Shown: positions 23,487 through 36,398 of the stretch, one piece after another
Numbering within the stretch: position 1 is the first letter of the stretch
Layout of the letters: each line of letters begins with the position of its first letter
From: a virus
DNA: 45,378 bases
Virus record (IMG/VR): IMGVR_UViG_3300021407_000019
Coordinates: 1 to 45,378 of that record
Strand: one strand, 5' to 3'
Translations under genes and position numbers: made by a program
The notes under the pieces: generated by a model
Database searches by the model: none
Told to the model about the DNA's origin: nothing
Seen by the model: the letters and a program-made list of their open reading frames with translations, nothing else

Positions 23487-26274
23487 AGAGGGTCGCTATG
23501 GAGTCTTTGTCCTCAATACAAAAAGACATCGGTGGTTTGATCGAATCGCTGAAACAGCTGATTATTGTCTTTCTGAAGATGGAGCCGGACGAACTGTATT
23601 TTTCGCGTGTGCAACGTTTAATGCTGATGGCCATAGAACTCAAGAAAATGCGCGAGGAGTTCGAAGCTTCTGGCTCGACATCGACGCAGGACCCGAAGCA
23701 GTAAAGAAAAATCCGAAAGCCTACACCGATGCCGTTCAAGCTTACCAAGCAGTCGTATCTTTTTGTGGAGCAGCACGACTCCCTGCCCCAACCTATGTTG
23801 CTTCAGGTACGGGTTTACATTGTTATTGGCCGCTGGTGTCTACTCTGGACCCGGCCACTTGGAAACGGTACGCGGAGGGACTTAAGCGCCTGTGTGTACA
23901 ACACGGCCTTCAAGCAGGCCCAGAGCGCACCGCCGACATCGCCTCAATTCTCCGGCCTCCCGGCACCCATCACCGAAAAGGAATACCGCGACTCGTTGAG
24001 TGTGGCGAGCTTGTCGGACCTTACGAACTTGCGCAACTCTGGGAGCCTTTAAGTGAGCAAAGACCCGTACAGCAACAGCGATCTCAACAGGATGTGCCAC
24101 GCCTTGCAGGAGCGCTTGCAGCTATCTACGAGGATGAGCCAAGATCTGGCGAACTTATCGCGGGAACTTGCGCTCAAGTTAGAGCTTTGCGCGATAGTCA
24201 TGGAAACGTGCCTGAGCCAATCTGGTACGGAGTTCTTGGAGTCCTCGCTTACTGCGACGATGGCGAGCGACTGGCGCACACCTGGTCCGAAGGATACGAA
24301 GGCTACACTTACGAAGAAACTCAATCACGCCTTGACCGAACTCAGAATCTCTCGGGAGCAACAACCTGCGAACGATTCGCAGGACTCAATCCCGAGCCTT
24401 GCCGAAGCTGTCCGCATTTTGGACGAATCAAATCGCCGATCAGCTTGGGGCGAGACGCGCGAGATACAGCACAAGCCGGCACAGCAACGAATATTTTTGG
24501 CGAAAAAACTGAAACGAAAGCGGAAAAAGACCTAGACCTCCCCGACCTACCCCATGACTTTTTCTGGAGAAACGACGGTGCGCTCATTACTAAAACAGGG
24601 ACTGGTGGCGGCGATGTTGACATCGTTATTTCTCGCTACCCTATTTTCCTCTCCAGCGTCCAAACAGGAGAAGTCCGAGGGGAATTTAACCTTATCTTTC
24701 AACAGAGATTGCCAGTTAGGGGTTGGATGGAGATCAATCTCTCCGCTAGCACAGTATTTGGTCATGGGGCTGGGGCCGAACTCGCAGCGAGAGGCGCAAA
24801 CATTCATGAACAAACCCATTTCTTGCGCTACTGTCGAAGCGCGATTGATATGTTCTACGGAAGCAATTCCTTGTCCATGAGATATGACCAGTTCGGATGG
24901 AAGGACGACGACCATGCCTTCCTGTTCGGCCTCGACCTTTACAACGGTGTCGGGGTCAAACGTGTCATGGGCAACGACGAAATTCAAATCAGATGCAAAG
25001 AGGACTGGGTCGGTCCTTGCAAGGGAGGCGACATTGAAGGATGGAAACAAAGTATTAACGCTTTATTCGCGTCTGGATGCGAACCTCAATCAGTTGTTCT
25101 CCTTGCCAGCTTCGCAGCTCCTCTTATGCGCTTCCAAGAACGCGACGAAGGCGGAGCTATTATCCATCTTGTCACTCGCGAGTCAGGTACGGGTAAGTCT
25201 ACTGCGCTTATTGGAGCAGCTTCAGTCTGGGGCCGCCGTGAGGGACTTGGACTCACGAACGAAGACACAAAGGTCAGCAAAGCGCTTACGCTCGGCGCGC
25301 TCGGCAACCTCCCGGTCATCTACGACGAAATATCGATCCGCGACCCTGAGGCGATCAAAGCGTTCGTCCTGAACTTCACCAACGGTCGCGACAAGATGCG
25401 CGCCACGCGCGGCGGCGAGATCAAGCACACGGCGTCGACCTGGCAGACCATCCTGATCTCGGCCGCCAACACGTCACTGGTCGATGTTCTCTCGGCGCAG
25501 GGCTCGCCCGAGGCACCGGCCATGCGCATCCTTGAGTTCGGCCTAAGTCTCCCCGACGAGCTCAAGCATGTGCAAGGCGACAAGCTGCGCAAGGCGTTGC
25601 GCGCCAACTCGGGCTATGCCGGGCAGGCGTTCCTCAACTGGCTGATGCAGCCGGGCAATCTTGCTTGGACCAAGGCGACACTGGAGACAGTCACGCAGCA
25701 GACTTGGACCAAGACCGGATTTCGTTCCGAGCATCGGTTTTGGGTTCGCACCATTGCCGCGGTCGCCGTAGCCGGCGTTATCGTCAAGAAGCTTGGCCTT
25801 GTCGAGTTCTCGGTCGAGCGCATCATGAACTGGCTGTTCGAGCAGCCGCAGTTCGTTGTCGGATCCGCAGTTGCCAAGGCCGACTGGGCGTTGCCGGCGC
25901 TCGCCGAATTCCTCAACGAGTCGATCGGCAACGCGCTGGTCATGCCGCGCGCCTGGGTGCCCGGCGAGACGGCACGGCCGTTACAAGAGCCGCGATACAA
26001 ACTGACAGTGCGATATGAGCTGCAGCCACGACGGTTGCTAATCTCGACTTCGGCGCTGCGGGAATATTTGATAAAGAAAGAGCTCAGCTACCGCGAGTTT
26101 ATTTCGGTACTTGAGCAAGCCAAGGTCATTACGCGCAAGCAGATGCAGGCTACGCTAGGCGCCGGCACCGAGATCCCCGGTGGACAGGTGTGGTGCGTCG
26201 AGATCAACGCTGGACATGAGGCAGTGGTCGGTGTGTTACCGGTAGCAAAAGACAACGTGGTAGCTATGCGATAG
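23446..26274 (+). CDS. Primase-polymerase / helicase fusion
   Basis: This 942-aa protein has an N-terminal archaeo-eukaryotic-type primase (prim-pol) domain: FWLDID with D78 and D80, then SGTGLHCYW (120-128; His125). A Cys cluster (CRSCPHFG and nearby C) sits at about residue 320. The C-terminal half is a DUF927-like ATPase/helicase with Walker A ESGTGKST (579-586) and YDE (626-628). It should prime and unwind at the fork, so the phage has its own replisome core with the family A polymerase. The first 1.9 kb shows lower third-position GC. It ends in TAG, overlapping tail-to-tail with the opposite-strand gene by 11 bases. Confidence 0.9.
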   Translation: MASTADFLKHVLPEEGRYGVFVLNTKRHRWFDRIAETADYCLSEDGAGRTVFFACATFNADGHRTQENARGVRSFWLDIDAGPEAVKKNPKAYTDAVQAYQAVVSFCGAARLPAPTYVASGTGLHCYWPLVSTLDPATWKRYAEGLKRLCVQHGLQAGPERTADIASILRPPGTHHRKGIPRLVECGELVGPYELAQLWEPLSEQRPVQQQRSQQDVPRLAGALAAIYEDEPRSGELIAGTCAQVRALRDSHGNVPEPIWYGVLGVLAYCDDGERLAHTWSEGYEGYTYEETQSRLDRTQNLSGATTCERFAGLNPEPCRSCPHFGRIKSPISLGRDARDTAQAGTATNIFGEKTETKAEKDLDLPDLPHDFFWRNDGALITKTGTGGGDVDIVISRYPIFLSSVQTGEVRGEFNLIFQQRLPVRGWMEINLSASTVFGHGAGAELAARGANIHEQTHFLRYCRSAIDMFYGSNSLSMRYDQFGWKDDDHAFLFGLDLYNGVGVKRVMGNDEIQIRCKEDWVGPCKGGDIEGWKQSINALFASGCEPQSVVLLASFAAPLMRFQERDEGGAIIHLVTRESGTGKSTALIGAASVWGRREGLGLTNEDTKVSKALTLGALGNLPVIYDEISIRDPEAIKAFVLNFTNGRDKMRATRGGEIKHTASTWQTILISAANTSLVDVLSAQGSPEAPAMRILEFGLSLPDELKHVQGDKLRKALRANSGYAGQAFLNWLMQPGNLAWTKATLETVTQQTWTKTGFRSEHRFWVRTIAAVAVAGVIVKKLGLVEFSVERIMNWLFEQPQFVVGSAVAKADWALPALAEFLNESIGNALVMPRAWVPGETARPLQEPRYKLTVRYELQPRRLLISTSALREYLIKKELSYREFISVLEQAKVITRKQMQATLGAGTEIPGGQVWCVEINAGHEAVVGVLPVAKDNVVAMR

Positions 26275-26620
26275 CCTCAAGCAACTTCGCTGGCAACCGC
26301 TTTTCTTCCGCAGCAATCAGCGCCAACAACTCAGGCAATTTATCGAATCGCTTCTGCCGGAATTTTTCCTCGCTCACCCGCAAGCTGGCGTTGATCGCCG
26401 AGTTGATGATCGAGCACTTGGCGCGAACAATAATGCCAAATTGCTCTTTATTGTAGATCGGATCGTCTTCGCGCATTTCGAGGATACGCTTGGCTTCGCT
26501 CAGCGACAGGTCGGTGACATCGTCTAAGGCTCTTGCGAGTAGCGAAGGTTCGTCGCGTAACCTTGCTTCTGGATTATCGGAAGTTGTTTGCGGAGCTTCA
26601 ATCCTATGTCGTTCCTCCAC
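26264..26620 (-). CDS. Hypothetical protein at end of right late block
   Basis: The credible part is the last 100 residues: LSLSEAKRILEMREDDPIYN, IIVRAKCSIINSAINASLRV, then KFRQKRFDKLPELLALIAAE. It is helical, and the layout recalls some small terminase subunits; this is low confidence. No ATG is in frame; GTG 26620 is the nearest normal start, inside the ATP-grasp gene, so the start is uncertain. The stop meets the primase stop tail-to-tail. Confidence 0.55.
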   Translation of the reverse strand: MEERHRIEAPQTTSDNPEARLRDEPSLLARALDDVTDLSLSEAKRILEMREDDPIYNKEQFGIIVRAKCSIINSAINASLRVSEEKFRQKRFDKLPELLALIAAEEKRLPAKLLEAIA

Positions 26621-27855
26621 ATTGGGGAGCAGGGCGGAGTCAAGCGATTCAAGCGACGGTAAGTTGTCAAAGCGGCGTCCTTCACCGTATCCGCTACTGC
26701 CGTCATTACCAGCACGTAGTCCCCCGCCGTCACTGGCTGCAACGTATTGATGATTTTGCCCTCCACCGCTAGCGGCGCCATCTGCATCGCCATCTCGCAG
26801 GGATGGACGTGCTTCCACAAAGAGTCCTTGAGCCCATAGATCGGTATCCCCGACGTCTCCTTCCCCGTCGCTTTCGAATAGGGATAGTCCGGTATCGACA
26901 TGACGACGCCGCACGCGACCTTGTCCATGAGGAGGCTTCGCGAGTCTCGCCCAGAAGCCAGATCCATCAGCCATTGCGCGACGTCTCCTTGACACAGTGC
27001 GACCTGCAGGTTGAACGCCGGCCAGCCGAGACGCGTGGTAAACTCAAGCGGCCAGGGGTGTCCCTGTTCGTCGATGATACAATTAACGTCGATGTCGCCG
27101 CAATAGTTGGCTTTTTCAAGCTGCGTGGTGAGCGGGAGCAGAACCTTGCGCGCGAGCTTGGACTGCTTGACGTAGCGCGAGATAGTGCCCTGCTCGCCGG
27201 TCGCCGGACCCATATCTCCGGTCATCAGCTTCTTGAACTCGAAATTCTCCTCAAAGCCTTCATTCCAGCCGCCGGGGCCGAACCATCCGGCGACGCCCAT
27301 TTCTACTCCTTTGACGAACTTTTGCAGGATAAAGGGGGTCTTGAGCTTACCGAGCTTTTTCCATCGTTCGAGCATATAGACCATGTCATCAGGACCGGAT
27401 GATACATAGGATAAAGACTTATCCGCCTCGAACCCCCCAGTAGGCTTAGAGACGAACCGACCCATTGTCCGTTTGACGTAAGCAATTGCTGCATCATAGT
27501 CGCTGAACTCCGTCACCGGCAGGACCGAGATGCCTGCCTTCTTGAAGACTGTCTGACCGACCTGCCGGTCGATCTCCCATGCCGACGTCTCCTTGGTCGA
27601 GCCGATGACCAAGCCGCCAGCGGCGCGGTGGCGGTCGAGGTCCTGCAGGTACATGGCGTTGTCGCAACAGACGACAAGGTTCGACCAGCGCAGCCACTCG
27701 CGCGGGTCCGGGACGACAGTGACGAAGCCCCTGCCACGGAGAGTGTTCTTCTCGGTCGGCTTGATGGCGAGCTTGACCTCATGACCGGCCTGCTGGGCGC
27801 GGAGCGCGAGGTCGAGGCCGACCGAGCCTTCTGGGTCTATGACGAGGAGGCGCAT
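26524..27855 (-). CDS. PurD-like ATP-grasp ligase
   Basis: This 443-aa protein follows glycinamide ribonucleotide synthetase (PurD) along its length: Rossmann-like start MRLLVIDPEGSVGLDLALRA, ATP-grasp region FVSKPTGGF and FILQKFVKGVEMGVAG, TGDMGPATGEQGT (212-224; TGGMG in PurD), PLEFTTRLGWPAF (269-281; EFNxRxGxPE in PurD) and a C-terminus with ALTTYRRL and WRNDIG. The Mg-site Asn of EFN is Thr here. PurD joins glycine to phosphoribosylamine with ATP. Here the acceptor may differ, for example a nucleotide or protein. It overlaps the YkgJ-type gene by 19 bases and ends in TAG. Confidence 0.85.
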   Translation of the reverse strand: MRLLVIDPEGSVGLDLALRAQQAGHEVKLAIKPTEKNTLRGRGFVTVVPDPREWLRWSNLVVCCDNAMYLQDLDRHRAAGGLVIGSTKETSAWEIDRQVGQTVFKKAGISVLPVTEFSDYDAAIAYVKRTMGRFVSKPTGGFEADKSLSYVSSGPDDMVYMLERWKKLGKLKTPFILQKFVKGVEMGVAGWFGPGGWNEGFEENFEFKKLMTGDMGPATGEQGTISRYVKQSKLARKVLLPLTTQLEKANYCGDIDVNCIIDEQGHPWPLEFTTRLGWPAFNLQVALCQGDVAQWLMDLASGRDSRSLLMDKVACGVVMSIPDYPYSKATGKETSGIPIYGLKDSLWKHVHPCEMAMQMAPLAVEGKIINTLQPVTAGDYVLVMTAVADTVKDAALTTYRRLNRLTPPCSPMWRNDIGLKLRKQLPIIQKQGYATNLRYSQEP

Positions 27856-28193
27856 CGTGCCCGAGCCGCTTCCATTATTTTAGGGTAGCGTTTGTCTCCG
27901 TGTAAAATTTTGTCGGGGTCTTGAAGCCAGTCGCGACAATCAAATTCACGACACATTTTAGGACGACGTTCGTAGATTGAGCATTTACCATTCGCCAAAT
28001 AAAAACACTCTCCGTCTTTTATGGGTAGTTCATATCCGATGCTGCGCTCTAGCGGATTATCCTTATGTCCTACCCAAACACGAGAAAGTGTCGGGTAGTT
28101 ATCAGGGTTATCGTCCGCAGTTAAGCGCACACTGAAACCTGAACGGCAGCAAAGATTGCAGCCGTTGCACGGTACGCTGCGATCTTCAATCAC
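27837..28193 (-). CDS. YkgJ-type CxxCxxCC cysteine-cluster protein
   Basis: This 118-aa protein has CNGCNLCC (C9, C12, C15, C16), then GECFYLANGKCSIYERRP (C63, C71) and MCREFDC (C81, C86): eight Cys in the family layout. Such proteins bind zinc or an Fe-S cluster; their reactions are largely unknown. Start GTG 28193 overlaps the stop of the 53-aa gene. The end overlaps the PurD-like gene, which suggests one functional pair. Confidence 0.88.
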   Translation of the reverse strand: MIEDRSVPCNGCNLCCRSGFSVRLTADDNPDNYPTLSRVWVGHKDNPLERSIGYELPIKDGECFYLANGKCSIYERRPKMCREFDCRDWLQDPDKILHGDKRYPKIMEAARARCASSS

Positions 28194-28351
28194 ACGCTCG
28201 CCTTCGCCAACCGCTTGTCTCGCGCTTTGACCGCCCGCGGGTTGCCCATGGTCTTGGTATCCGCCATGGTGTCGGCCTGCTTGAACGGGCCGGTCAGGGA
28301 CTTCGGCATCGACTTCTTGCTCTTGGCTTTCATTTTGCTACCGCGTGCCAT
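28190..28351 (-). CDS. 53-aa highly basic protein
   Basis: ATG 28351 with AAAGGAG upstream gives 53 aa (MARGSKMKAKSKKSMPKSLT and on), with about 16 Lys/Arg. Small basic proteins like this occur near virion genes and may bind DNA. The stop overlaps the GTG start of the cysteine-cluster gene. Confidence 0.65.
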   Translation of the reverse strand: MARGSKMKAKSKKSMPKSLTGPFKQADTMADTKTMGNPRAVKARDKRLAKASV

Positions 28352-28363
28352 GTTTTACTCCTT

Positions 28364-28609
28364 TTAAATGCTCATTACCTTTGCGACTTCTGCTAGTTCC
28401 TTTGGAGGCATAGTTTGCCCCTCTTTAAAGAAGCGTTCTTTTGCAGCCACAGAAACAGGGTGTCTTTCCCACAAGAGCATGCGCAGAAGTGTAAGCGCTT
28501 TCCGGTACTCTTCTACTGACGGCGGCCAATTTTCTTGCGTAAGGGTAACTGATTCGCTTTGCGTTTCTTGCCCATCGCATTCGATAGTCGCCGTAATTTT
28601 GACGCTCAT
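28364..28609 (-). CDS. Hypothetical 81-aa protein
   Basis: The first 25 residues look beta-rich (MSVKITATIECDGQETQSES), followed by helices (YRKALTLLRMLLWERHPVS). No family is recognised. ATG 28609 overlaps the previous stop. Confidence 0.65.
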   Translation of the reverse strand: MSVKITATIECDGQETQSESVTLTQENWPPSVEEYRKALTLLRMLLWERHPVSVAAKERFFKEGQTMPPKELAEVAKVMSI

Positions 28610-28776
28610 TCTTGACTCCCTTGGTATTGGCGCTGCTGCTTCTTATCGTAAGTCTCTTTTGCTCTCCTGTTCTGCCAAACAGCTACGATAGTAACCGCCC
28701 AAATGAGCAGGATAATAGCTATAACGCCGAGTAAAATGGTATGCCTAGTGAAAGCATCCAAATTAACGAAGTCCAT
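28606..28776 (-). CDS. 56-aa single-pass membrane protein
   Basis: ATG 28776 follows AAAGGAG. TILLGVIAIILLIWAVTIVA is one membrane helix, followed by a basic Gln-rich tail. Role unknown. Confidence 0.6.
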   Translation of the reverse strand: MDFVNLDAFTRHTILLGVIAIILLIWAVTIVAVWQNRRAKETYDKKQQRQYQGSQE

Positions 28777-28804: not shown

Positions 28805-28939
28805 TCATTCTTTGTAAGCTTTGGCTTTATAAAGCTCGACAATAATCTGAAGCGCGATGCGAATCTCTGCGTCGGTATAGTTACCTTGCTCAATAGCCTT
28901 GTCAAAAGCTTCGGCTAATTTAGCAGCGCGCTCACTCAT
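28805..28939 (-). CDS. 44-aa helical protein
   Basis: MSERAAKLAEAFDKAIEQGN followed by DAEIRIALQIIVELYKAK is an amphipathic helical pair. It starts within the last bases of the large internal-protein gene. Function unknown. Confidence 0.5.
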   Translation of the reverse strand: MSERAAKLAEAFDKAIEQGNYTDAEIRIALQIIVELYKAKAYKE

Positions 28940-31619
28940 TCGAGCCCCCATAGGACTGTTTTTTTAGGTCTTCTTGTTTCTTCTCGTAGTTCTCTTGATT
29001 CTGCTTAGCACGCCGTTGTATCGCTGTCGTCGTGCGGGCGTATCCGGTTGGGTCTTCGGCGTAGACCGGCGCCTCGCGCACGCCCATGAACTGCTCGATG
29101 CCACCGAGATTAGTGCCTGGATATTGCGGCTTCTCAAGGTTCTTTATGGAGATGGGCGTAACGCTCTCGCCTACGTATTTGAGGTAGTCCGCCAGCCAAG
29201 GCAGCCAGTCGGCCTCCGGTGCGATCGGAAAACCGCGTGAGTCCTTGCCGCCTGAAAGCAGCGGCTGCAGGACCATCCGTGGCCCGGTTGCAAGCTTATT
29301 AAGCGCTTCTTGCTGCGGGTCGTGAATCCAGCCAGCGTAATCACCCTCGTACCCCGCCAGACGCGCCTTCTGCGGCACGCGCTGCCCCCTGCGGGTGTAA
29401 TACTGCTGCGACCTGTCAGGCGCGCTGCCGGACGTCGTGCCGCCCGTCTGCGGGAATACCAGATCACTCCACTGCTCCGGGTCCTTGCTGGTCTTCAGCT
29501 TCATGTAGATCGCGGCGATCGTGCCCGAGACGATCGGCATGGCGATGGCGTACTCGGCCTTGCGGGTCAGCTTGCCTCGCGCCAGATCGCGCACCCCGCC
29601 GAGCAGCCGCAGTGTGCCCATATCCCACGAGTAGGAGCGCAGCACGAGCTGGCTCATCTGCTTCATAGTCTTATTCCAAAAGATGTTGTCTTGGATCATC
29701 TCGCCGAAGCGATCGTCCATGGCATCGATAATGTTGCGCGCCTCGGCAACCTGCTCGTCAAACGTCGCGTTCGGGTGCATCTCCATCCAATCGTGCAGCG
29801 TCTCGTAGACGGCGGCGTTCTTGAGGCGCGGGATGTAAGTCTCAAAGATCGGCGCCGCCACGGTCTGCATCGCACGGCCGACGTTGCTGGTGACTTCCTT
29901 GAACGCGCCGACCGGGCCGGACTTTGCATTCTGCCAGCTTTGCGTTATCTCTTGCTTGAGCGCACCGCGCTTGAACGACGTCCAGTAGTTGCCCATGGCC
30001 GACATGGAGTAATCAGGCGCGTGGCCGCGGCCAACGCCACGCATGCCGGCCTTCTCGGCGACGTCGAGCACACGACGCAGATCTGGAGTGCCTGCGGTGC
30101 GGCTCAGGTACGCCTGCTCGACCTTCTTGCCGGCTGCGGCCATGCGGAACGGCGCAACTGGCGAACGGGCTATGGTGCTCAGGCCCTTGCCAACACGGCC
30201 ACCAATGACGTTCTGCAAGCCGTTAGCGAAGTCGGATATAATCGCTTCCTTCGCCATCGTGATGGCGTGGTAGCCGGACAGGCCGAGCTCCATGGAGGTT
30301 ATGGCGTTCGACCCGTGCTGCAGCGTGTCATAGACCTTGCCCCAGTCGGCGCTCTTGTGGACGCCGCGGTCAATGTAATTGTTGTAGACGCGCGCCCAGT
30401 CCTCGGGTGCGTAAGCTTGCTGCCCTTGCGCATTGACTGAGCCTCGACCATTCAGCGGCACCCAGCCATCGGGGATAGGACCGCTCGGCGCCACGTTGTG
30501 CCCCATGGACGAAGGATGCCCTGACGCGCCCATGGCAGTCGGCTGTTTGAAGTATCTGACGTTGCCGGTGGTGACGCCTGTATCGAGCGCCTCCTGCGAA
30601 GCGATAAAGTTGTCCATGCTGCGGGTGTAACGCAGCGTCATCTCGATCGGATCGTTCGTAGCCGGCTGTAGTCCCATGGCCAGTCCTTCGGCGTAAGTCG
30701 GAACGGTGCGCTTCTTGAGCGATGCTGCCGAGCCTTGCTTGCCGGTGCCGATGGCGAAGTTACGAAATGCCTGTTGAGCCTGCCCAGGATCCTTCCACAT
30801 ATGCGGCAAGTAATTCTCGACAAAGTCCATCTGCGCGGTCTTCGGCAAGTTCAATAGCTTCTGTTTGCGCTGGTCAAGGTTGTCCCTGAGCGTGTCGGCG
30901 AGCGCGCGCAACGGACCAGCCTGCTTCGACTGCGGGCCGAAAAGGTTCAGGTTAGTCGAGTGTCCCTCGATATAGTTGACGAGCCCTTGCTTATCAGGAT
31001 CAGGTAAAGCGTTGACTAGGGCGTGGTACGGCTCGACGTCGTGCGCCGTGATCGCGTAATCCCGCGCCGCTGTGCCGGTTGCCTTGCGGATTGTGCCAGC
31101 GGCTGCTTCCGCTTCGGGAGATACCGTACTGGGCGATAGAAACTTTTCGAGGGGCCGCAGCATCTGCTTGCCCCACTGGGTGCCTGCAAGGCGCGAAGCA
31201 CCTATAACGCCCGCGCCCTTGAGGGCTAACCCTCCCAAGCCAAGGGCCGCTGTCAGGCCGCCCTCAATGGCGAACTTCTGCTGCTCCTCGGGCGTCTCCT
31301 TGCCCTTGAGCACGTCCGAGGCTTCGCTGACGCCTGTCGCCTGCCCGGCGATCGACTCAGCCTTGCCGCGTGTGGCGGCGATGTCGGCAGGTATATTGGT
31401 CGGCTGGATGGTCTGACCTTGTTTGGGCACAGGCGCGACTGCGCTCTGCGGTGCGTGGTAGTCCTTCATGACCTTGTCGATGACACTTGGATCGGTGCCT
31501 GCGGGGAACTCGTGCAGGATACCGTCAGCGCTTTGCGCGCGAACCGGATCCGACGCTACGTTCGTCCACGGAGCGGCAGTCGGGCCTGGCTTTACTGTAA
31601 TGTCGACGCCGACTGGCAT
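28932..31619 (-). CDS. Large internal virion (ejection) protein
   Basis: This 895-aa protein is mostly helical, with a hydrophobic patch near 120-150 (GGLTAALGLGGLALKGAGVI), many Trp/Tyr and a Lys/Gln-rich end. Its size and place after two smaller Gln-rich proteins fit the last of the internal proteins that podoviruses inject to form a DNA channel across the cell envelope. No lytic motif was found. ATG 31619 overlaps the TAA that ends the extended frame of the upstream gene. Confidence 0.75.
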   Translation of the reverse strand: MPVGVDITVKPGPTAAPWTNVASDPVRAQSADGILHEFPAGTDPSVIDKVMKDYHAPQSAVAPVPKQGQTIQPTNIPADIAATRGKAESIAGQATGVSEASDVLKGKETPEEQQKFAIEGGLTAALGLGGLALKGAGVIGASRLAGTQWGKQMLRPLEKFLSPSTVSPEAEAAAGTIRKATGTAARDYAITAHDVEPYHALVNALPDPDKQGLVNYIEGHSTNLNLFGPQSKQAGPLRALADTLRDNLDQRKQKLLNLPKTAQMDFVENYLPHMWKDPGQAQQAFRNFAIGTGKQGSAASLKKRTVPTYAEGLAMGLQPATNDPIEMTLRYTRSMDNFIASQEALDTGVTTGNVRYFKQPTAMGASGHPSSMGHNVAPSGPIPDGWVPLNGRGSVNAQGQQAYAPEDWARVYNNYIDRGVHKSADWGKVYDTLQHGSNAITSMELGLSGYHAITMAKEAIISDFANGLQNVIGGRVGKGLSTIARSPVAPFRMAAAGKKVEQAYLSRTAGTPDLRRVLDVAEKAGMRGVGRGHAPDYSMSAMGNYWTSFKRGALKQEITQSWQNAKSGPVGAFKEVTSNVGRAMQTVAAPIFETYIPRLKNAAVYETLHDWMEMHPNATFDEQVAEARNIIDAMDDRFGEMIQDNIFWNKTMKQMSQLVLRSYSWDMGTLRLLGGVRDLARGKLTRKAEYAIAMPIVSGTIAAIYMKLKTSKDPEQWSDLVFPQTGGTTSGSAPDRSQQYYTRRGQRVPQKARLAGYEGDYAGWIHDPQQEALNKLATGPRMVLQPLLSGGKDSRGFPIAPEADWLPWLADYLKYVGESVTPISIKNLEKPQYPGTNLGGIEQFMGVREAPVYAEDPTGYARTTTAIQRRAKQNQENYEKKQEDLKKQSYGGSNE

Positions 31620-33616: not shown

Positions 33617-33778
33617 TCACTTCTTGGCCGCCATCATAGTCATAAGGCCCATAAACTGAGGCGCGTGTAGTGTCTGCTCTAAAATAAACTGAGCAAGCGC
33701 CTTTGCTGATTCAAAGCCAAGATGCTCAGCGTGCTTCTCCAGACGCTCATTTTCTTCAGCACTTAGATAAATTTCCAT
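33617..33778 (-). CDS. Hypothetical 53-aa helical protein
   Basis: MEIYLSAEENERLEKHAEHL and AKALAQFILEQTL form a ribbon-helix-helix-like sequence, a common small DNA-binding fold, though evidence is thin. ATG 33778 overlaps the TAA of the GNAT gene (TAATG). Confidence 0.6.
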   Translation of the reverse strand: MEIYLSAEENERLEKHAEHLGFESAKALAQFILEQTLHAPQFMGLMTMMAAKK

Positions 33779-34278
33779 TACAGCTCCATCACGTAAAGAC
33801 GCTCGGCAAGCTCATAGCCCACGCGCTGGTATATCTTGCCGAGTGTTTGCTGCGTCGCGTCTTCGCCGACCGAGATGCGCTTGCAGCCCCACTCGCGCAG
33901 GATGTCCCTGTTTTTAGCGAGGAATTTTAGGCCGGTCCAGCCGTGGCGGTAGGGCTTATCAAGAAACACGGCGATGGTGATGCCGTGGACCACCGACCGG
34001 TACATCAGATGCGGGCCGACAATGGAGATGGCGAAGCCCCCGAGCACAGGCCCATCGCGCAGTGTGACGATGCGCAATTGCCCGGTGAACGCCATGCGGA
34101 AGAGATTGGCCCAGTCGGGCTCGGTCGCCGACTTACCCAGCTCCTCACCGTAACGGGCAAAGAGAGGCGGCAGTTCGTCCGCCATCTCCTCGAAACGCTC
34201 GGGCTGGATCCTAAGCGACGCGCCCGTCGCCGATGGTACGAGGCGTAGGGGCGGTTTCCTTGCGAGTTGCTTCGTCAT
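33778..34278 (-). CDS. GNAT-fold protein, possible virion protein
   Basis: This 166-aa protein has an acetyltransferase-like layout: VLGGFAISIVG, IAVFLDKPYRHGWTGLKFLA and a C-terminal YQRVGYELAERLYVMEL. The acetyl-CoA loop (RxxGxG/A) is replaced by YRHGWTG. Some podovirus internal proteins, including T7 gp13 as I recall, have this fold without clear catalysis. Its place right before the ejection proteins supports such a role; a real acetyltransferase is the alternative. Confidence 0.75.
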   Translation of the reverse strand: MTKQLARKPPLRLVPSATGASLRIQPERFEEMADELPPLFARYGEELGKSATEPDWANLFRMAFTGQLRIVTLRDGPVLGGFAISIVGPHLMYRSVVHGITIAVFLDKPYRHGWTGLKFLAKNRDILREWGCKRISVGEDATQQTLGKIYQRVGYELAERLYVMEL

Positions 34279-35047: not shown

Positions 35048-35395
35048 CTAACCCCCTTGGTGTTCCGCGATGATGCGGTAGTCGAGCCCAGGCGTCAGCC
35101 TTTTGAGCTGCGTCAGCGCGGCAGTATAGCCCGCTTCATTACCAGATTTCAACTGCATCCGCGCCAGTCCATACCACAGGTCGGGAGCGTAAGGATCATG
35201 CCGCAATGCCGTCTGAATCAGGGGGATGGCATCCGGCGCCCCAGTGACGATGGCCAGATAGGCTGGTCCAGACCGGTAGGTTCGGATGAGGGGGAAGAGG
35301 CGGCTGGCGAGCATGGCGTGCTGTGGATCGTGGTGCAAAATCGCCAGCCCATATTCGTGGTCCCCAAGTAGCGAGCAGGTCGAAAAGAACAACAT
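35048..35395 (-). CDS. TPR-like small protein
   Basis: The 115-aa product has AIPLIQTALRHDPYAPDLWY then GLARMQLKSGNEAGYTAALT, one to two tetratricopeptide-type helix pairs. O-antigen ligases often carry such repeats at their C-terminus. It overlaps the ligase-like gene by 200 bases in the +1 frame. It may be separately started (ATG 35395) or joined to the ligase by a frameshift. It ends in TAG. Confidence 0.6.
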   Translation of the reverse strand: MLFFSTCSLLGDHEYGLAILHHDPQHAMLASRLFPLIRTYRSGPAYLAIVTGAPDAIPLIQTALRHDPYAPDLWYGLARMQLKSGNEAGYTAALTQLKRLTPGLDYRIIAEHQGG

Positions 35396-36398
35396 GCTCA
35401 GCAAAAAGAGCCCCTGCGCACACCGCAGCGAGGCTCGCTGTAACAGGCTCGTATAGGGGAAATCCAAAGCAACCCTCCACCAAAAAGACCACCAGAGCGT
35501 ACCAGGCGGGCGACCGCGGCGTGCCCCACAGCTGGGCTATGACCAGTGCCGCGGCAAGGACGGCACCGAGCCCGAGTTCGAAGGCAAGTTGCATGAAGTC
35601 GTTGTGTGCGTTCTCGAACCGTAGCGTCAGCGCGGTCGTGTGGTGCTGGTAAATCGGAAACTCGGCGATGAACGATCCCAGCCCGTGCCCCCAGGGGCGC
35701 AAGCCCGGCAGCATGTCCTCCCAGACTCCGATGCGCTGGATCAGATCGGTCAACCCGCCATAGTCATGCATCCACGACACGACGAACAGGATACCGCCCA
35801 TGAAGGTCATGAAGCCGAGGAACGGGGAACGGCGACCAACGGCAAAGGCAGCCGCCGTTCCCAGCGCGATGACTGGCGCGCGGGACCCGTACAGGAGGAC
35901 TGGGAGAACTCCGGGTACGAGCCAGTACAAGCGGTAGGCTACCACCAAAGCCAGTGTCATGCCAGCCGCCTCGGCGCCGATATTGCGATTGTAAAAAAGA
36001 CCAGGGAGAGGCGACAGCATGGGAATGTAGGTCAAGCCGTAGTGCTGCGCGAGCATCACACACGAGTTCACCGCCATTCCGAGTCCGGCGCCGATCGCTG
36101 CCTTGCGCAGATCAAAATTTGATAGGAACAGCACCGACAAGATCATGAAGTGAACGAACAGAAGCAGCGCGTCGTAACCGGTCGGCCCGAGCAAAGCCAT
36201 GCCGGCGACGTAGGCGACTACAATGAAATAGGTCGACGTCATCTCGACCTTGAAGACGAGGATGCCTGCGGTCACTGCCATCAAGGCCCAGCGTGGGATC
36301 TCGGCGCCGTCTGGGAGAGCGGGGATGCAAAGAACGGTGAGAGCAAAAAATAAGGCGTGCGTAGTGTAACCGACCGCCCATTTTAGAATACGTTTCAT
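35196..36398 (-). CDS. O-antigen ligase/polymerase-like membrane protein
   Basis: This 400-aa protein has about ten membrane helices. It has GSRAPVIAL (171-179), then WGHGLGSF (236-243) and ENAHNDFMQLAFELGLG (262-278), the loop and helix typical of Wzy/WaaL-type proteins, with His265 as the key residue. It may change the host surface polysaccharide during infection, blocking further adsorption. The last 55 residues turn Arg/Pro-rich where the TPR-like gene overlaps, so the natural C-terminus may be in the other frame. ATG 36398 overlaps the fibre stop. Confidence 0.8.
   Translation of the reverse strand: MKRILKWAVGYTTHALFFALTVLCIPALPDGAEIPRWALMAVTAGILVFKVEMTSTYFIVVAYVAGMALLGPTGYDALLLFVHFMILSVLFLSNFDLRKAAIGAGLGMAVNSCVMLAQHYGLTYIPMLSPLPGLFYNRNIGAEAAGMTLALVVAYRLYWLVPGVLPVLLYGSRAPVIALGTAAAFAVGRRSPFLGFMTFMGGILFVVSWMHDYGGLTDLIQRIGVWEDMLPGLRPWGHGLGSFIAEFPIYQHHTTALTLRFENAHNDFMQLAFELGLGAVLAAALVIAQLWGTPRSPAWYALVVFLVEGCFGFPLYEPVTASLAAVCAGALFAEHVVLFDLLATWGPRIWAGDFAPRSTARHARQPPLPPHPNLPVWTSLSGHRHWGAGCHPPDSDGIAA

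Follow-up and report, generated by a model that had tools for sequence, protein, structure and literature searches.

A PurD-like gene in the late block of an IMG/VR virus was found to encode a protein that is very likely an active carboxylate–amine ligase and not a GAR synthetase, as judged from its retained catalytic residues and its fold. It represents an unstudied, conserved family of PurD-derived ligases with intact predicted catalytic residues, absent from PHROGs (none of four phage members could be assigned to a PHROG family). Taken as a whole, the evidence leads us to favor, with moderate confidence, an active ATP-grasp ligase of the PurD fold that is not a GAR synthetase, stands alone, likely acts on small molecules, and is encoded at a fixed late site.

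The DNA analyzed here, referred to as the window, is a virus record of 45,378 bases. Genes around the ligase encode the portal, terminase, endolysin, and major capsid protein as well as an acetyltransferase-like and a gp16-like protein; the primase/helicase and DNA polymerase genes lie on the opposite strand. The gp16-like label was assigned from size and gene order, without a family match, and the comparison with T7 gp16 follows from position. An initial annotation had described a PurD-like ligase gene overlapping a gene for a small CxxCxxCC protein. Both open reading frames were recovered as described, with an overlap of 19 bases (27837–27855), and the PurD-like motifs TGDMG, EFTTRLGWP, and RNDIG are present in the larger one. 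The pair does lie in the late block, as had been proposed, but it does not end it, since a small terminal gene follows the ligase gene (Table 1). The frame of this small gene stays open deep into the ligase gene (26264–26995, minus strand), and in most ligase-carrying relatives, related small-gene frames start within the ligase 3′ end. This layout suggests a conserved, out-of-frame overlap of the two genes, with a putative start codon for the smaller one.

Table 1. Positions in the window of the ligase gene, its neighbors, and its active-site motifs
Feature	Positions	Strand	Basis or remark
PurD-like ATP-grasp ligase, 443 aa, ATG start	26524–27855	−	ORF, Pfam, TIGR00877, AF2 model
Lys137 codon, ATP-binding lysine common to phage, cellular paralog, and PurD	27445–27447	−	
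TGEQGT loop, residues 219–224	27184–27201	−	TGGMG in PurD
EFTTR, residues 271–275	27031–27045	−	Followed by GWPA where PurD has GDPE
CxxCxxCC (PF03692, YkgJ-type) protein, 118 aa, GTG start, nine Cys	27837–28193	−	ORF, Pfam
Small terminal late gene	26264–∼26620	−	Overlaps ligase gene 3′ end; GTG at 26620 is the putative start
gp16-like large virion/ejection-type protein, 895 aa	28932–31619	−	Conserved gene 5′ of ligase in relatives
Four small ORFs, gp16-like gene to CxxCxxCC gene	28190–28351, 28364–28609, 28606–28776, 28805–28951	−	

The ligase matched GARS_A with 30.7 bits, over the Pfam cut-off of 27, and GARS_C with 25.6 bits, under the cut-off of 34.8; GARS_N was not detected in the Pfam search. 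Against the purD equivalog model TIGR00877, it reached 70.5 bits, whereas the cut-off is 288. An AF2 model built from a 68-sequence alignment (mean pLDDT 93.5) adopts the ATP-grasp fold. GAR synthetases fill the first 15 places among its PDB matches, led by 2yw2, with TM-scores to the query of 0.69–0.75.

The active site was then compared over conserved columns of the phage clade, the cellular paralogs, and PurD, with PurD positions given in Salmonella numbering. Residues Lys137, Glu185, Lys208, Glu271, and Arg275 are invariant in all 68 aligned family members, and the ATP- and metal-binding residues are intact in the ligase except for PurD Lys105, which is Arg97, and Glu187, which is Gln178. 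Like PurD, the ligase has a C-terminal DIG motif. The PurD-invariant GGREHA and GPE motifs, Asn226, Gly229, Asn288, Asp293, Glu295, and the C-terminal Arg383 have, in contrast, given way to other residues across the whole phage clade. The cellular clade has lost most of them too, and GGREHA is missing from both. Neither the R[LF]GDPE motif (PS00184 region) nor EFN is found, the ligase reading EFTTRLGWPA; EFN has become EFT, GDPE has become GWPA, and GGMG (in PurD NTGGMG) has become GEQG. Within EFTTR, Glu271 and Arg275 are kept, and the PurD Asn is Thr across the whole family. A computational study of PurD modeled Asp212, Arg287, and Glu292 as glycine ligands (PMC8880213); the equivalents in the ligase are Glu206, Arg275, and Ala/Thr280. 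Conversely, His351 is shared by all members of the two non-PurD clades, whereas PurD has a gap there. Values of dN/dS between the ligase and its two closest relatives were 0.16–0.18 (larger distances are unreliable through saturation), which indicates purifying selection.

A maximum-likelihood tree was constructed from 70 proteins (25 phage members, 26 cellular paralogs, and 19 true PurD proteins). The phage members all fall into a single clade (100/99). Beside it, the cellular paralogs group together with weak support (84/44), and true PurD lies across a 100/100 branch from both. The tree has long branches, including the root branch, which makes the split from PurD more secure than the branching order among the non-PurD proteins. 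The ligase carries the signature TGE(M/Q)GT plus EFTxRxG(Y/W/N)P of the non-canonical clade. With the Asn-to-Thr change fixed family-wide, most PurD-invariant positions lost, and the protein outside true PurD in the tree, the earlier suggestion that the acceptor is probably not phosphoribosylamine is strengthened.

The cellular sister group shares TGE(M/Q)GT and PLEFTxRxG(Y/W)P with the phage proteins, and both lack GARS_N and the GDPE Asp. The phage members differ in forming their own clade, in having Trp where the cells have Tyr, and in their late-operon position, the cellular members being mostly stand-alone chromosomal or plasmid genes. A scan of genome contigs turned up close cellular relatives in haloarchaea and, with a sparser occurrence, in Patescibacteria, Acidobacteriota, Omnitrophota, Bdellovibrionales, and others. 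Their distribution is patchy: one phylum sample had 13 carriers among 333 genomes, and a second had 12 among 347. Of 20 genomes that hold the paralog, 18 also encode a purD scoring over the cut-off; the other two, of ∼0.9 Mb and possibly incomplete, hold the paralog without one. Mostly sharing a genome with true purD and twice occurring without it, the paralog thus has a role separable from purine synthesis. An earlier study (Brown et al. 2011, PMC3261824) concluded that two haloarchaeal PurD-like proteins lacking the same Asp and GARS_N, rrnAC0307 and Hlac_1553, are no GAR synthetases; their described features would place them in the cellular clade. Beyond that study, no literature on extra PurD-like proteins was found in our search. 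One genome of a sampled phylum has two non-identical tandem copies of the paralog, followed by a methyltransferase gene.

To establish how widely the ligase is distributed, searches of IMG/VR were carried out with a single protein, which returned one close relative, and with a three-member alignment, which returned at least 523 confirmed stretches, of which 80 were kept. The carriers include many soil and freshwater phages, in which the ligase gene lies in the late block, after the gp16-like gene and facing a convergent primase/helicase gene. Of 76 carriers tested, 66 have a relative of the small late gene at or near the ligase 3′ end. Among 22 records of at least 36 kb chosen by their capsid protein, 15 carry the ligase. 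Of the seven that do not, six were seen on direct reading to have the ligase junction closed, with the gp16-like or corresponding virion gene overlapping the small gene by four bases and nothing between them. The ligase is thus a common, not universal, accessory gene at one site of the late operon. An intact 443-aa member was also found in the GenBank phage MW202796.1 (42140–43471), where no feature is annotated. It sits after the last annotated late gene of this phage, whose capsid protein is of a different PHROG family; a comparable placement of the ligase is thus seen in two or more phage lineages.

The initial annotation had proposed that the ligase and the CxxCxxCC protein act as a joint system, in which a metal- or Fe-S-binding partner would supply or process the substrate. 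That the small protein is of the YkgJ type was borne out by its PF03692 score (37.5 bits, gathering cut-off 23) and by eight of its nine cysteines, which follow the YkgJ-type pattern; we know of no partner ligase for this family. The 19-base overlap in the window speaks for such a system, but gene overlaps are common throughout the late block (e.g. 28190–28193 and 28606–28609), and this one therefore says little on joint function. By the criterion for refutation given with the initial annotation, the proposal fails: homologous phages carry the ligase without PF03692, which was detected in none of 37 ligase-carrying relatives and none of the 22 capsid-matched records. Nor did the CxxCxxCC protein match anything in the phage collection at E 1e-5, weaker matches occurring only above that value; its closest named match is a plasmid YkgJ protein (34.5% over 69%). 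The proposed adjacency is not conserved either. Instead, 28 relatives have an ORF of at least 500 aa immediately before the ligase, as a rule the gp16-like gene, with spacings from a 43-base overlap to a 17-base gap and often a four-base overlap; in other relatives, small unrelated ORFs are found there. Because PF03692 is absent from the relatives tested and the upstream ORF varies, the CxxCxxCC gene fills a variable slot in this one phage, and by these comparisons it is a chance neighbor, incidental cargo of the window phage. On this evidence, together with a pattern scan, a conserved pair was rejected, and we regard a joint system as extremely unlikely.

As for the reaction, the retained catalytic residues and the fold suggest the usual ATP-grasp ligase chemistry: a carboxylate would be activated to an acyl phosphate with ATP and Mg2+, and attack by an amine would then yield an amide along with ADP and phosphate. 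As the PurD substrate site is lost, the two substrates are probably not those of PurD, the acid probably not being glycine nor the amine phosphoribosylamine. With PurD as the closest solved homolog, a shifted but related reaction is possible. The enzyme, carried between the gp16-like gene and the small terminal gene, would stand alone and most likely act on small molecules.

Gene neighbors of the cellular cousins were also examined as hints to the substrate. At two Pfam-checked loci from the Acidobacteriota sample, a cousin adjoins two MFS transporters, and elsewhere a cousin comes after an ATP-grasp protein of the L-amino-acid ligase/D-Ala-D-Ala ligase type. MetK lies beside some cousins, and a methyltransferase beside some. 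A further locus combines the cousin with ornithine decarboxylase-like and saccharopine dehydrogenase-like proteins, a SAM synthetase, a SAH hydrolase, and a SET-domain protein; one of the saccharopine dehydrogenase-like proteins we take to be a homospermidine synthase. Bacterial neighbors vary, each operon type occurring in one to a few lineages, and those of the haloarchaeal cousins are not conserved. Overall, the operons of some cousins favor small-molecule conjugation. SAM synthetase or small SET-domain proteins were seen near the cousin at three loci from unrelated lineages, too few for an association.

A more specific proposal can be made, although a doubtful one: that the PurD-derived ligase common to phages and to scattered archaea and bacteria makes an undescribed amide conjugate (e.g. 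of an amino acid or polyamine), which late in infection would aid virion production or DNA packaging. With virion-type genes as its fixed neighbors in the phages, the ligase might instead act on proteins late in infection, attaching an amino acid or peptide to a host protein or to one of the virion, such as the gp16-like protein. Its late position, its start at or near the stop of the large upstream ORF in the 28 relatives, and the proposal that phage ATP-grasp peptide ligases of another family modify host proteins (PMC7824862) agree with this, but relatives without the ligase retain the gp16-like gene and the cellular cousins stand alone, without a conserved protein partner; we consider it unlikely, though a real rival given the fixed neighbors.

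PurD ancestry would suit a role in DNA hypermodification, with the phage DNA receiving an amino acid on a modified base or nucleotide; a modified nucleotide had also been suggested in the initial annotation. Among the part of the window ORFs that was searched, however, no partner base-modification gene was recognized, and the late position is away from the replication genes, making this very improbable. A counter-defense role, in which the enzyme would restore or cap a metabolite that a host defense uses up, would agree with the accessory distribution at a fixed site in the capsid-matched records; the late rather than early position speaks against it, no defense model of the PADLOC library matched, and assignment as a known defense or anti-defense protein was dropped. 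The chance of this role is slight indeed. Finally, the fold and the GARS_A match might point to an ordinary purD, carried as an auxiliary metabolic gene to raise purine synthesis in the host. The low equivalog score, the lost substrate motifs, and the position outside PurD in the tree led us to reject it as such, and it retains hardly any probability.

Compared with known systems, the ligase shares with GAR synthetase (PurD; TIGR00877, PF01071/PF02843) its fold, its closest solved structures, and most ATP- and Mg-binding residues. Phage amidoligases and peptide ligases (R2K type and others) are likewise ATP-grasp enzymes in phage genomes, but the present protein differs in matching GARS_A, a comparison made with those enzymes by description only (PMC7824862). 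The sister cellular family tends to carry a purine-synthesis annotation, which is contradicted here for many archaea and bacteria. Finding the substrates would correct this annotation and could reveal a metabolite needed by phages late in infection, the gene being widespread in viral sequences and unannotated in the sole GenBank phage record found.

Two other late-block genes were noted. The acetyltransferase-like gene (33778–34278, minus strand) matches phrog_1249 and, by gene order, would occupy the T7 gp13 position; as a match to a phage acetyltransferase PHROG that is present in two ligase-less relatives, it was set aside as a partner of the ligase. An ORF at 35196–36398 (minus strand) gave a weak Wzy_C (O-antigen ligase) match, under the cut-off, and related ORFs occur in two ligase-less relatives.
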